Below, one piece after another: positions 4,823 to 40,172 of a stretch of 64,000 bases of DNA. The stretch comes from Spirochaeta thermophila DSM 6578. GTDB lineage: Bacteria > Spirochaetota > Spirochaetia > Winmispirales > Winmispiraceae. The first letter of the stretch is position 1. The number at the start of each line of letters is the position of its first letter. The stretch is taken from assembly GCF_000184345.1 (NCBI RefSeq), contig NC_017583.1, positions 992,001 to 1,056,000 of the forward strand, given 5' to 3'. The translations under genes and the position numbers were made by a program. A model generated the notes under the pieces. It did no database searches. It was not told the origin of the DNA and saw only the letters and a list, made by a program, of their open reading frames with translations.

Positions 4823-5479
4823 CTACAGGTAGCCTGCCTGTTTGAGGGAGAGGTATCCCTTCTGTGAGAAGACGATATGGTCGAGGAGGGGGATGCCCAG
4901 TATCTCGCCCGCCTCTTTGAGTCTGCGGGTGACCTCTTGGTCCTCCACGCTCGGGGTGAGGGAACCGCTCGGGTGGTTGTGGGCCACGATGATGCTCGCG
5001 GCCCGGTCGGCGATGGGGTCGGCGAAGACCTCGCGGGGGTGGGTGAGTGCCCGGTTCACCAGACCCACGCTCACCACCCTGAGGGCGATGAGCTCCTGGG
5101 CGCCGTTGAGCGAGAGGCAGAGGAAGTGCTCCTGCTTCTTGTCGGCATACGGCCTCAGGAACTGGTAGGCGATCTCCGGCGTGGTGATGGGGGTGGAAGG
5201 AGGTGCAAGATACCTTCGCGCGAGCTCGAAGGCCGCGAGGATGAGCGTGGCCTTTGCCTGCCCCAGCCCCTCGATGGTGGTGAGCTCCTTCACCGAACAG
5301 GAGAAGTTCCGCGCCTCCAGGAAGGAGAGCACCTCCCGTGCGAGCTTCCGGACGCCCTTGCCTTTGATGCCGCTTCCCAGGATCACGCTCATGAGCTCCT
5401 CGCTCGAGAGGGCTCCCGGCCCCCGTTCCACGAGCCGCTCCCTCGGTCTGTCGTGAGGGGGAAGTTCCCGTACCTCCAT
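4823..5479 (-). CDS. radC: RadC family JAB1/MPN domain protein
   Basis: A 218-residue protein. The inner ATG at 5479 is chosen because the bases ATGGAGG just upstream provide its ribosome site; frames starting at 5524 or 5491 lack one. The N-terminal helix-hairpin-helix (GSGIKGKGVRKLAREVL) is followed by a JAMM metal site, VAHNHPSGSLTPSVEDQ, with glutamate further upstream. Despite its name the family is not established in recombination repair; biochemical role is unknown, and some members act in natural transformation. It is transcribed on its own or with katG upstream, although a terminator lies between them. Confidence 0.9.
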   Translation of the reverse strand: MEVRELPPHDRPRERLVERGPGALSSEELMSVILGSGIKGKGVRKLAREVLSFLEARNFSCSVKELTTIEGLGQAKATLILAAFELARRYLAPPSTPITTPEIAYQFLRPYADKKQEHFLCLSLNGAQELIALRVVSVGLVNRALTHPREVFADPIADRAASIIVAHNHPSGSLTPSVEDQEVTRRLKEAGEILGIPLLDHIVFSQKGYLSLKQAGYL

Positions 5480-36098: not shown

Positions 36099-37429
36099 GG
36101 GACTGTAACATCGAGTGTTGAAAAAGGCGGGGAAAAAAGATAAGGGGTATCTCCCACCAACACACACTTACAGCTAAGGAGGAGATACCCCATGACACAT
36201 GTACCTGCGACACACTCTACCCTTTCTCGCCTGATGAGGCAAGTGGAAGACCAGGTACGGGAGCACGTCCTCCAGACGTACAAGAGCTACCTGGAGCGCC
36301 TCCTTGAGGCACTCAGAGATGCGGTAGTGGGAAGAGACCGATATGCCAGAGGAGGTCCTGAGGACGTCTCCTACTACCGGTACGGCTACAGGAAGTGGAA
36401 GACCGTGCAGGTCCCATGGGGAACCCTTACTGAGGTACGCGTGCCGCGTATCCGTACCAGCTGCGGGAAAGAGGTGAGGCTGGTGACCTATGAGCACAGG
36501 CTCAAGGCCCTCACCGAGGAACTTCTGCTTGGGTATGTGGGAGGGATGAGTGCGCGGACGTGGACCATTCTCTTACGGGAGCTGGGGATAGGAGAGGCTC
36601 ACCCGCAGACCCTGCTGAGGCTCATCAGACGTCTTCGCGAAGAGAAAGAGCGGTGGCGGAAGCGGCCCCTCAGCGGGGTGAAGGCCCTTGTGCTGGATGG
36701 GGTATGGGCCAAGAGGCGGGGGAGCGATCAGAAGAAGCTGGTGGTCTTAAGTGCCGTGGGGGTGAAGGAGGACGGGACACACGAGCTGCTTGACTGGATC
36801 GTTGCAGCGCGTGAGGACCGAGCGAGCTACGAGCGACTCCTTACCGGGCTCTACGAGCGGGGGCTTGAGGAGGTGGAGCTGGTGGTGGCCGATGAGGCAG
36901 AAGGCATCTGGCAGGCGGTGGAGACCGTGTATCCCGAGGCGAAAAAGCAGATATGTCTGTGGCACCTGCAGCGGACGCTTGAACAGAAGCTCCTGCAGGA
37001 TATGGGGGAACGGAAGGGGAAGAACGCAGACCTCCAGAAGGAGAGGCGAGCTTTTCGAGCGGAGTACTGGAAGCTCTTTGAGGCAGGAGGGAAGGAGGAG
37101 GCAGAGGGTGCGTGTGAGGCATTCGTGAAGAAGTGGGCGCCGAAGGCTCCCCGGATGACGGCTGCTCTCCTGTGGCGGAAGGAGCGGCTCTTCTCCTATC
37201 TGGAGTTACCCTATGAGTGGAAGGAGAAGGTGAGGACGAGCAACCTTGCGGAGAACATGTTTCGTCACATGAGGAGCTTTCTGCGGAGGTATCCTGGGTA
37301 TATGAGCCGTGCCCATGCAGATGAGGTGGTAGGCCTCTACGTGGTGGGCATGCAGGTGATACAAGAGGTGGGGAGATGCACCCCTTATCAACTCCAGCTC
37401 AATTTCAACACTCCCCCTTGACAGTGCCC
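36099..37429 (+). mobile_element. IS256-family insertion sequence
   Basis: An element of about 1.33 kb with one transposase gene and imperfect inverted ends. The left end begins GGGACTGTAACATC with GAGTGTTGAAA further in; the right end, read inward on the other strand, begins GGGCACTGTCAAGGG with GAGTGTTGAAA. No clean target-site duplication flanks it, so the ends have drifted or the ends are a few bases off. It stands between the aat-side gene and two tRNA genes. Confidence 0.8.
36192..37421 (+). CDS. IS256-family (Mutator-type) transposase
   Basis: A 409-residue DDE transposase, intact. ATG 36192 follows AAGGAGGAG. The catalytic residues are visible: first Asp in LVLDGVWAKRRG, second Asp in LVVADEAEGIWQAV, and Glu in RTSNLAENMFRHMRSFLRRYPG. 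CLWHLQRTLEQKL between them is the typical helical insertion. The stop lies inside the right terminal repeat. No frameshift or stop interrupts it, so the element may still be mobile. Confidence 0.92.
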   Translation: MTHVPATHSTLSRLMRQVEDQVREHVLQTYKSYLERLLEALRDAVVGRDRYARGGPEDVSYYRYGYRKWKTVQVPWGTLTEVRVPRIRTSCGKEVRLVTYEHRLKALTEELLLGYVGGMSARTWTILLRELGIGEAHPQTLLRLIRRLREEKERWRKRPLSGVKALVLDGVWAKRRGSDQKKLVVLSAVGVKEDGTHELLDWIVAAREDRASYERLLTGLYERGLEEVELVVADEAEGIWQAVETVYPEAKKQICLWHLQRTLEQKLLQDMGERKGKNADLQKERRAFRAEYWKLFEAGGKEEAEGACEAFVKKWAPKAPRMTAALLWRKERLFSYLELPYEWKEKVRTSNLAENMFRHMRSFLRRYPGYMSRAHADEVVGLYVVGMQVIQEVGRCTPYQLQLNFNTPP

Positions 37430-37444
37430 AGGGGGGGCTGGATG

Positions 37445-37488: not shown

Positions 37489-37561
37489 GGGCCGCTAGCT
37501 CAGCTGGTAGAGCAACGCCCTTTTAAGGCGTGGGTCACAGGTTCGAATCCTGTGCGGCTCA
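37489..37561 (+). tRNA. tRNA-Lys (anticodon TTT)
   Basis: A 73-base cloverleaf. The acceptor stem GGGCCGC/GCGGCTC closes with one G-U pair; the anticodon loop CTTTTAA in stem ACGCC/GGCGT gives anticodon TTT; the T arm is ACAGG-TTCGAAT-CCTGT. Discriminator A; CCA is not encoded. Confidence 0.97.
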
Positions 37562-37577
37562 AGCTTCGGCGATACAT

Positions 37578-37649
37578 GTCTCCTTCGTCTAGGGGTTAGG
37601 ACACAGGGTTTTCATCCCTGTAACAGGGGTTCGAATCCCCTAGGAGACG
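37578..37649 (+). tRNA. tRNA-Glu (anticodon TTC)
   Basis: A 72-base cloverleaf. Acceptor stem GTCTCCT/AGGAGAC, anticodon stem CAGGG/CCCTG with loop TTTTCAT giving TTC, T arm with TTCGAAT. Discriminator G, no encoded CCA. Sixteen bases after tRNA-Lys, same transcript. Confidence 0.97.
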
Positions 37650-37652
37650 CTG

Positions 37653-38215: not shown

Positions 38216-38350
38216 GCCGTTTCCTCCTTCTCTAATATGAATCTGCACGGTGCACCCATACAACATAGAGCGTATCGAGAGGAAAAACAAGTGGAGAGAA
38301 CTTTCCAAAATGATTGTCGCTACTGGACCGGCTTCGTGGAGAGGATCCTG

Positions 38351-38379
38351 TTGCATTGTGCAGGGGCGTGGGATAGACT
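38351..38379 (+). promoter_or_regulatory. Promoter of the ATPase/TOPRIM-like gene
   Basis: -35 TTGCAT (38351-38356), 17-base spacer, -10 TAGACT (38374-38379), about 36 bases before the start codon. Confidence 0.5.
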
Positions 38380-38414
38380 GGGGATGTACCCTTTCCATTG
38401 CCGAGGAGAAGGGA

Positions 38415-40124
38415 ATGCTCACAAAGCTCTGCGTACGGAATTTCAAAGTGTTGGACGAATGTGAGATCGACCTCTCACAGCGGGTGGTGTTCGTCGGGCC
38501 CAACAACTCGGGAAAGACCTCCGCTCTCCAAGCGATCGCCTTGTGGGATCTCGGCGTGAAGAGATGGCTCGAGAAGAGGGGAACCCAGGATGTCCCCTCC
38601 AAACGGGCTGGGGTGACGATCAGCCGGCAGGATCTCATATCCATCCCCGTGCCCTCGGCGAAACTATTGTGGAGGGATCTCCATGTGAGAGAGGGAGAGC
38701 GGATAGGAGGGAGGGCCCAGACCCGGAATGTGAGGATCGAGATTGGGGTGGAGGGTGTGGACACGAACCTGTGGGAGTGTCGTTTGGAATTCGATTATGC
38801 AAACGAAGAATCCATCTACTGTCGTCCTCCGCTCGGTCCGAACAGACGGCGGCTCGATGTACCCGCCCATCTCAAGGATCTTCAGATCGCCTATCTTCCC
38901 CCGATGTCAGGTCTTGCAGCCCGGGAAGACCGTCTTGAGCTGGGATCCATACGGGTGAGGCTGGGAGAAGGCCGCACGGCCGAGGTGTTACGGAATCTAT
39001 GCTGGCAAGTTCTGCAAAGTGAGAACGGGAGGGAAAAGTGGGAGAGGATAAAAGAAGACATGTATCGTCTCTTTGGGTCGAGACTCAACGATCCCAAGTA
39101 CAACCTGGAACGCGGGGAGATCACTCTCGATTACTCTGCTCCCTCCAACACGGTACTCGAAATTTCGGCTACGGGACGCGGCGAGCAGCAGACACTGCTC
39201 CTGCTCGCATATATGGCGATCAACACAGGATCTGTGCTCCTGCTCGACGAACCTGATGCGCACCTTGAGATTCTCCGGCAGAGGCAGATCTACGAGTTGT
39301 TGTGTGAACACTCGGAGGCAACCAACAGTCAGATCATTGCAGCGAGTCACTCAGAAATCCTTCTCAATGAAGCAGCACAACGGGATCTGGTCATAGCTTT
39401 CGTCGGAAGGCCCCATCGAGTTGATGACCGGGGAAGCCAGCTGTTGAAGGCATTGCGCGACATCGGTCACGACCAATACTATCTGGCCGAGACCACGGGA
39501 TGGGTCTTGTACCTTGAAGGTTCTACGGATTTGGCTATACTCAAGGCCCTCGCCCGGAAACTGGGGCATCCGGTTGAGAAGGTGTTGGAGCGTCCCTTTG
39601 TCCACTACGTAGGGAATCAGCCACGGAAAGCAGAGGAACACTTCTATGCACTTCGGGAAGCCAAACAGGATCTTGTCGGTATCGCCGTGTATGATCGTCT
39701 TGACAGAGCATTGCCTCAGGATCCCGATCTGAGACATGTCATGTGGTCCAAGAGGGAAATAGAGAACTACATCTGCCGCAAGGAGGTGCTCCTCGCATAT
39801 GCCGAGGCGGAGGGGAAGCGTCATAGCGGCGAGCTGTTTGGGGCTCGATGGCGTGAAGAGATGGAGAAGGCCATTGAAGAGATCGAAGCCGCACTGAGGA
39901 CTCTGGGCAAAGATCCATGGGGTGGGGATCTCAAAGCGAGTGACGAATTCCTTGCCCCGCTGTTCAAGAACTTCTACGAGAGGATTGGACTACGCAATGA
40001 AATGGCGAAGACCAACTACCATGTGCTCGCGGATTTCATCTCCCCCGATGACGTGGATCGAGATGTCCGTGAGGTGTTGGATGCGATCGCAGAGGTGGCA
40101 GGTTCTGCAAAGAGACGGTCTTGA
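38415..40124 (+). CDS. ABC-type ATPase fused to TOPRIM/DUF4435-like nuclease (OLD- or PARIS-like)
   Basis: A 569-residue protein. ATG 38415 follows GAGGAGAAG; the open frame back to 38250 crosses the promoter. The N-terminal SMC/ABC-like ATPase has Walker A VGPNNSGKTSA (about 28-38), signature-like ATGRGEQQTLLL, Walker B SVLLLDEPDAHLE (about 277) and the H-loop ASHSEILLNEA. The C-terminal half is TOPRIM-like: YLEGSTDLAIL (Glu about 371), AVYDRLDR (Asp about 427) and SKREIENYICR. This is the plan of OLD nucleases and of fused AriA-AriB (PARIS) proteins. Base composition is lower (50% GC in 39301-39360) than its neighbours, suggesting transfer. It stands alone between a barrel protein and a TPR lipoprotein. 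A defence role is inference. Confidence 0.75.
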   Translation: MLTKLCVRNFKVLDECEIDLSQRVVFVGPNNSGKTSALQAIALWDLGVKRWLEKRGTQDVPSKRAGVTISRQDLISIPVPSAKLLWRDLHVREGERIGGRAQTRNVRIEIGVEGVDTNLWECRLEFDYANEESIYCRPPLGPNRRRLDVPAHLKDLQIAYLPPMSGLAAREDRLELGSIRVRLGEGRTAEVLRNLCWQVLQSENGREKWERIKEDMYRLFGSRLNDPKYNLERGEITLDYSAPSNTVLEISATGRGEQQTLLLLAYMAINTGSVLLLDEPDAHLEILRQRQIYELLCEHSEATNSQIIAASHSEILLNEAAQRDLVIAFVGRPHRVDDRGSQLLKALRDIGHDQYYLAETTGWVLYLEGSTDLAILKALARKLGHPVEKVLERPFVHYVGNQPRKAEEHFYALREAKQDLVGIAVYDRLDRALPQDPDLRHVMWSKREIENYICRKEVLLAYAEAEGKRHSGELFGARWREEMEKAIEEIEAALRTLGKDPWGGDLKASDEFLAPLFKNFYERIGLRNEMAKTNYHVLADFISPDDVDRDVREVLDAIAEVAGSAKRRS

Positions 40125-40142
40125 CTCCTCCCACGCATTCCC

Positions 40143-40172
40143 TTGACTTTCCTCCGCGGGCCTGGATAGGCT
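40143..40172 (+). promoter_or_regulatory. Promoter of the TPR lipoprotein gene, start at or beside the ATG
   Basis: -35 TTGACT (40143-40148), 18-base spacer, -10 TAGGCT (40167-40172, extended by TGGA). The ATG at 40179 follows the -10 after six bases, so the message would have no leader. No ribosome site is present. Confidence 0.55.

Follow-up and report, generated by a model that had tools for sequence, protein, structure and literature searches.

A horizontally acquired ATPase-TOPRIM gene in Spirochaeta thermophila and its likeness to PARIS defence effectors

Background

Proteins which combine an OLD-type ABC ATPase with a TOPRIM domain are already known as a kind of defence factor. In PARIS, which consists of AriA and AriB or of AriAB fusions, AriB is held by hexamers of AriA; once an anti-restriction protein of a phage binds, AriB is released, dimerises and cuts tRNA-Lys, its residue E26 being essential (PMC12409363, PMC9122126). 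The system works without a restriction-modification (R-M) partner (PMC9122126), and its modules can also be found inside BREX loci: the BREX locus of Salmonella contains a DUF4435-ATPase pair (PMC9009780), and OLD-ABC/TOPRIM modules in BREX and BREX-related loci have been proposed to be suicidal backup effectors (PMC12839542).

Class 1 OLD proteins, including P2 Old, the T. scotoductus OLD (6p74) and E. coli YbjD, are defined as single genes without a UvrD helicase or reverse transcriptase neighbour (PMC10568477). In YbjD the Toprim domain is reported to be dispensable (PMC13261556). The two-metal site of the Burkholderia OLD is built from E400, E404, D455 and E508, while D457 acts through water and its exchange alone (D457A) had no discernible effect on cleavage (PMC6755086). 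HEC-04/IbfA, in which an ABC ATPase is likewise joined to TOPRIM, is encoded within Hma loci and protects against phages (PMC12111858), and PrrC has set the precedent for a guard of R-M systems (PMC12707154).

The gene analysed here lies in a stretch of 64,000 nucleotides (the window) of Spirochaeta thermophila DSM 6578, whose genome is complete in a single contig of 2,560,222 bp.

Results

The gene and its ATPase half

38415-40124, plus strand: ATPase-TOPRIM gene, 569 aa plus stop (ORF translation, Pfam, alignment, AlphaFold model)
38415-39419, plus strand: OLD/AriA-type ABC ATPase domain, residues 1-335 (PF13304/PF13175; AlphaFold model)
38496-38519, plus strand: Walker A GPNNSGKT, residues 28-35 (sequence, alignment)
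39237-39269, plus strand: Walker B LLLDEPDAHLE, residues 275-285 (sequence, alignment)

The open reading frame of the original prediction was confirmed. A longer frame, started by GTG at 38250, would give 624 aa; the start was placed at the ATG at 38415 because a AGGAGAAGG ribosome site precedes it and because nearly all relatives start there as well (M1 is at least 90% conserved in 81 aligned rows). Upstream of the gene, no good sigma-70 promoter was found by scan. A chance reading frame is excluded by the 229 encoding relatives that were obtained in one scan.

Walker A, Walker B and the H-loop (His312) are all in place, and G28, K34, D278, E279 and H312 are invariant among the 81 relatives, in whose alignment most of the invariant residues fall into the ATPase half. 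Pfam assigns AAA_21 (PF13304; 5e-19, 69.9 bits, cut-off 27) and AAA_15 (PF13175; 1.3e-18, 68.2 bits, cut-off 32.1) to residues 1-317, the OLD-type ATPase families that are expected of PARIS (AriAB), and gives nothing after residue 317. In the AlphaFold model, residues 1-335 align with PtuA, SMC/Rad50 heads and AriA 8v46_B (Z 16.5), and the best Foldseek match of the full-length model is the Class 1 OLD 6p74.

The C-terminal half

39465-40121, plus strand: AriB/OLD-like TOPRIM plus helical domain, residues 351-569, no Pfam family (predicted model, structure comparison)

A TOPRIM-like fold had been proposed to follow residue 350, in keeping with the general plan of OLD nucleases, and a likeness to AriB and DUF4435 had been hinted at. 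When the C-terminal domain was folded alone, with 31 relatives in the input (model mf67aba2ee948), such a fold was predicted (pLDDT 95.1, pTM 0.90), and the OLD-type plan of an AAA_21/AAA_15 ATPase followed by a TOPRIM-like domain holds. The best solved-structure match of this model is AriB 8ux9_A (Z 10.7, rmsd 4.4, 188 of 219 residues), and a second PARIS structure, AriB 8v46_D, reaches Z 10.3. These are followed by the C-termini of Class 2 OLD proteins with Z 7.5-8.3 (8.3 for OLD 6nk8), then by the Eco8 retron and GajA at about 6-7, unrelated rows lying near 5. On the predicted model, the AriB-like effector fold of PARIS (AriAB) is therefore present, as is a likeness to the OLD TOPRIM at Z 7-8.

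At the level of Pfam no family exceeded its cut-off for the C-terminal half, either in the protein or in 32 C-terminal members, and PF14491/DUF4435 (27-bit cut-off) had no match in the protein, in these members or in the whole genome. The OLD-like_TOPRIM family PF20469, by which a Class 1 OLD would be recognised, was seen in one of the 32 members with E 0.21. A PDB sequence search with the C-terminal profile gave chance matches only, and the direct hhalign comparison of the C-terminal domain with DUF4435 was weak (probability 5%, E 0.0075). DUF4435 was reached only over a bridged route of profile-profile comparisons, in which the family matches one set of other proteins of ATPase-TOPRIM type (E 1e-16) as well as such proteins from prophages (E 5e-11), the latter in turn matching spirochaete DUF4435 proteins (E 5e-5); the prophage protein L124 scores 88.5 bits with PADLOC AriAB. 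PADLOC AriA (8e-22) and AriAB (4e-17) are among the best matches of the protein itself, the AriAB score being 60.2 bits; for comparison, the published fused-protein models carry 80 or 20 bits (PMC9122126).

Homology of the C-terminal half to the AriB/OLD TOPRIM superfamily is supported by these comparisons. As far as sequence profiles can tell, it lies outside DUF4435 as currently defined, and the protein is not formally a PARIS member because PF14491/DUF4435 is not matched and the second aspartate of the DxD motif is replaced. Of the AriB/DUF4435 hint, the fold, the motifs and the bridging phage proteins, which are linked to fused AriAB and to DUF4435, have stood, whereas the PF14491 match and an intact DxD have not; the profile search that had been recommended thus returned the OLD-type ATPase (PF13175) but no DUF4435.

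The putative active site

39516-39530, plus strand: EGSTD, residues 368-372, with the putative TOPRIM glutamate E368 and second-metal ligand D372 (alignment; motif mapping to Burkholderia OLD E400/E404)
39690-39704, plus strand: YDRLD, residues 426-430, D427 invariant, Leu at DxD position 429 (alignment)
39750-39770, plus strand: KREIENY, residues 446-452, E448 and Y452 invariant, putative counterpart of OLD E508 (alignment; motif comparison with PMC6755086)

The motifs EGSTD and KREIENY were located as predicted. D427 and E448 are kept in all 81 rows, E368 in 79 and D372 in 78, and conservation is at least 96% for each of E368, D372, D427, E448, E450, K507 and K532. The aspartate pair that had been read from YDRLD, D427 and D430, holds for D427 only, D430 not being invariant. 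The position of the second DxD aspartate is taken by Leu in 64/81, by Ile in 8/81 and by Asp in 2/81 rows; both aspartates are kept in 10/10 DUF4435 reference rows. Of the intact TOPRIM glutamate and DxD that characterise PARIS, the glutamate and the first aspartate are thus retained.

Going by motif order, not by superposition of coordinates, E368, D372, D427 and E448/E450 are the putative counterparts of E400, E404, D455 and E508 of the Burkholderia OLD. By analogy, TOPRIM nuclease activity with DRL remains plausible, given that D457A was tolerated in that protein; it is not assured, as the DxD is degenerate.

A mirror image of the active-site change of the main family is found in a spirochaete paralogue (L017, 1492-3282), which is 34-38% identical, has an intact DND motif and lacks EGxxD in the alignment. 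Its source genome (G010) holds several relatives.

Foreign origin and a clean empty site

38373-40134, no strand: insert of 1762 bp that the collinear sister genome lacks (blastn comparison with its locus L108)
36192-37421: Mutator-family transposase, about 1 kb from the gene
37489-37561: tRNA-Lys(ttt) (tRNA prediction confirmed)
37578-37650: tRNA-Glu(ttc) (tRNA prediction confirmed)

The sister genome G001 is collinear with about 96% identity on both flanks and lacks exactly 38373-40134. In blastn, 37430-38372 matches L108 4461-5400 and 40135-42235 matches L108 5401-7501, and since the flanks are contiguous at 5400/5401 nothing else is missing between the two genomes at this locus. The insert holds only the ATPase-TOPRIM gene with a 42 bp leader and a 10 bp tail, and no target-site duplication was found at its junctions.

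The GC content of the gene (55.4%) is below that of its neighbours, as had been noted, and its GC3 of 0.634 is the lowest when compared with 42 long ORFs of the window (mean 0.765), against which its codon fit is the poorest as well, a few of these reference ORFs possibly being spurious. Of 60 related genomes, almost none contains the gene. In the tree of 81 relatives it falls into a branch of seven rows in which the other named sequences come from Chloroflexota and Bacteroidota (MAGs; SH-aLRT 99), two spirochaete rows being placed elsewhere, away from the gene. The empty sister site, the lowest GC3 and codon fit and the closest relatives in Chloroflexota and Bacteroidota MAGs mean that the gene is foreign and horizontally acquired, which bears out the lateral acquisition suggested by the original prediction; the opposite picture, a gene conserved in place in all relatives with normal codon use, was not found. 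From composition and tree we infer a gain in this genome instead of a loss in the sister.

A 10-mer, AAGGGAATGC, occurs just twice in the window, in inverted orientation, at 38409-38418 (plus strand) and 40135-40144 (minus strand). One copy is part of the insert and lies where the gene starts, and the other is found at the right junction, in sequence common to the empty site; 0.07 were expected and no shuffle gave two.

The gene neighbours are ordinary: a TPR protein and a short ORF to which Pfam assigns nothing adjoin directly, and adenylate kinase, DegT aminotransferase, NAD kinase and a RecN-like gene lie further out. No UvrD helicase, reverse transcriptase or PtuB HNH gene was found beside the gene among its neighbours in the window, which is the gene context of a Class 1 OLD. 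The gene itself is not part of a restriction operon, the hsdM-like genes being located about 320 kb away. Both tRNA genes and the mobile element that had been taken as signs of a defence spot do exist, but not with that meaning: the tRNA-Lys/tRNA-Glu pair is also present beside the empty site of the sister and no tRNA-Lys was near relatives in the 45 loci examined, so that tRNA-Lys was rejected as a linked target and its proximity is attributed to chance. The Mutator-family IS is not part of the insert and recurs in about 30 copies across the genome, and was rejected as a carrier on these grounds.

Upstream of tRNA-Lys, synteny with the sister breaks at this IS (window 37421-37430). The gene which precedes the tRNA pair in the sister is located at 1,455,033 here (region 1,453,718-1,456,184), and as it adjoins another copy of the IS, recombination between IS copies is suggested to be behind the break.

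Relatives and their operons

A scan of 84,980 species genomes gave the 229 encoding stretches; the best 80, which are 54-72% identical, were kept, and these are spread over more than ten phyla. Neighbourhoods were examined at 79 loci, some operon assignments being made by sequence clustering with a PADLOC-typed neighbour. At 18 of them the gene is located in a DNA-modification operon:

Type III (nine loci): L025, L026, L027, L034, L045, L065, L073, L085, L099
Type I (four loci): L050, L054, L067, L083
Hma (four loci): L032, L035, L036, L078
Pgl/BREX (one locus): L042, gene between pglW and pglX

The embedded gene is usually found between the two main subunits for modification and restriction, and the orders mod-gene-res and res-gene-mod both occur. 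Of the adjacent genes about 21/113 are of these operon types, versus at most 3/113 of the genes more than 5 kb away (Fisher p about 1e-4), and the embedding requires at least 13 changes on the tree. In one Planctomycetota and two Pseudomonadota records (L025, L026, L027) mod is 72-76% and the ATPase-TOPRIM gene 86-90% identical, which indicates that both were probably transferred across phyla as a unit. The remaining 61 loci have other neighbours, as does the window gene, and a strict confinement to R-M operons was rejected for this reason. A Dnd (phosphorothioate) neighbourhood at L062/L080 was dropped, only a cysteine-desulfurase-like gene being present. No close relatives were found in phage records; plasmids hold only distant ones, and viral contigs two close ones (L116, L117).

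Some further relatives deserve mention. In the Hma-like locus L078 (6227-8011) another AAA ATPase (383 aa) and a 209-aa partner lie directly upstream of the ATPase-TOPRIM gene, and two sensor-effector modules may possibly be nested in one operon. The loci L124, L125, L126 and L132, in viral contigs of 37-48 kb, encode ATPase-TOPRIM proteins of about 598 aa with an intact RDRD motif; they look like fused PARIS carried by prophages, as L124 exceeds 80 bits with AriAB. One relative (L004, 482-2212, genome G036) contains two in-frame TGA stops and is probably decaying.

Discussion

With PARIS the family shares the OLD-ABC ATPase, the AriB-like TOPRIM and the motif order EGxxD ... D ... (E)IENY, but it forms one chain of 569 aa, is not matched by PF14491 and reads DRL at the DxD, and the window gene stands alone. 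Class 1 OLD proteins are likewise single-gene ABC ATPase-TOPRIM proteins of similar length; the C-terminal half of the family is, however, nearer to AriB, lacks the OLD-like_TOPRIM profile match, and relatives are often found in R-M operons. HEC-04/IbfA also lies between Hma genes (compare L032), yet its profile matches the protein only with E 0.362 and 9.6 bits over some 43 residues around Walker A; this identity was rejected, and HEC-04/IbfA is, on the profile comparison, a different family in a similar niche. Gabija GajA and the retron PtuA/Septu belong to the same ATPase superfamily, whereas the family has another C-terminal domain and no GajB helicase, PtuB HNH or reverse transcriptase. 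Gabija (Class 2 OLD) was rejected, as no GajB UvrD-like helicase adjoins the gene and GajA profiles match the ATPase only. The effectors of PMC12839542 are OLD-ABC TOPRIM genes inserted within DNA-modification operons too, but that survey concerned BREX/BR loci, whereas members of the family are for the most part on their own and, where they are embedded, occur mainly in operons of type III, type I and Hma systems. PrrC shares the principle of a nuclease that resides in an R-M operon until anti-restriction sets it off, although it is a HEPN anticodon nuclease of unrelated fold. The family is a distinct variant by virtue of a C-terminal half outside current family models, its degenerate DxD and its repeated embedding in operons of type III, type I and Hma. 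No description of it was found in open-licence papers.

The explanation that we favour, with somewhat more confidence than doubt, is that the gene encodes a horizontally acquired, stand-alone, one-chain abortive-infection effector of PARIS-like type. In such an effector the ATPase half would oligomerise with ATP and sense the infection, while keeping the AriB-like TOPRIM nuclease half to which it is fused in an inactive state. The switch would be something made by the phage, most probably an anti-restriction protein or some other indication that restriction has been put out of action, upon which the nuclease would cut host nucleic acid (tRNA by analogy with AriB, alternatively DNA) and thereby abort the infection. 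The PARIS-like character is supported by AriB as best fold match, by the bridged profile chain and by the PADLOC AriA/AriAB scores. For a function in defence speak the foreign and polymorphic nature of the gene, the fact that relatives recur in restriction-type operons, as would suit an antiviral trigger of last resort, and the BREX precedents (PMC12839542, PMC9009780). Against the PARIS-like reading stand the lack of a PF14491 match, the weak direct comparison with DUF4435, the degenerate DxD, the 61 relatives and the window gene outside R-M operons and the fact that the fold match was obtained on a predicted model.

The main rival, serious even if we consider it rather unlikely, is a Class 1 OLD-type nuclease that would attack phage or damaged DNA directly, with ATP as modulator, and would not be a tRNase released by a sensor. 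The single gene without UvrD helicase or reverse transcriptase alongside (compare PMC10568477), the full-length Foldseek match to 6p74 and the second rank of OLD C-terminal domains behind AriB (Z 8.3) would agree with it, but AriB matches better and over more residues, PF20469 is all but missing among the 32 members, and embedding in R-M operons resembles PARIS or PrrC more than P2 Old. The same embedding, between modification and restriction genes of type III (in both orders), type I, Hma and Pgl systems, together with the joint transfer with mod across phyla and the precedent of PrrC, could also suggest a dedicated R-M guard whose ATPase would bind to or sense the restriction complex, the TOPRIM half firing when that complex is inhibited. 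We regard this as improbable: most relatives and the window gene lie outside such operons, the partner R-M types are structurally unrelated, making a shared docking surface hard to imagine, and PARIS itself requires no such partner.

Two further readings carry still less weight. The TOPRIM half might be catalytically dead or dispensable, growth arrest being caused by the ATPase as reported for YbjD; the loss of the second DxD aspartate in 79/81 members, the concentration of invariant residues in the ATPase half and the YbjD precedent point in this direction, yet all seven candidate residues from E368 to K532 are retained and the corresponding Burkholderia exchange had no discernible effect on cleavage, which makes this quite improbable. 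That the gene is a housekeeping or repair ATPase, as its SMC/RecF-like ATPase fold might suggest, is hardly credible in view of its absence from the collinear sister site and from nearly all relatives in the class, and of its foreign composition.

A more novel reading, which we consider rather unlikely, about as much so as the OLD-type nuclease, is that the family represents a separate and widespread class of single-chain 'anti-anti-restriction' effectors, in which the ATPase would monitor many unrelated restriction types and the TOPRIM would work with a degenerate DRL metal site.

Conclusion

The analysis has revealed a coherent ATPase-TOPRIM family in more than ten phyla to which standard models assign only generic ATPases. 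The S. thermophila member, a single thermophilic gene that is naturally polymorphic at a clean site, with and without, provides a test case for fused PARIS-like proteins as second-line defence, and also for the degree of degeneration that the active site of a TOPRIM can tolerate without losing its function.
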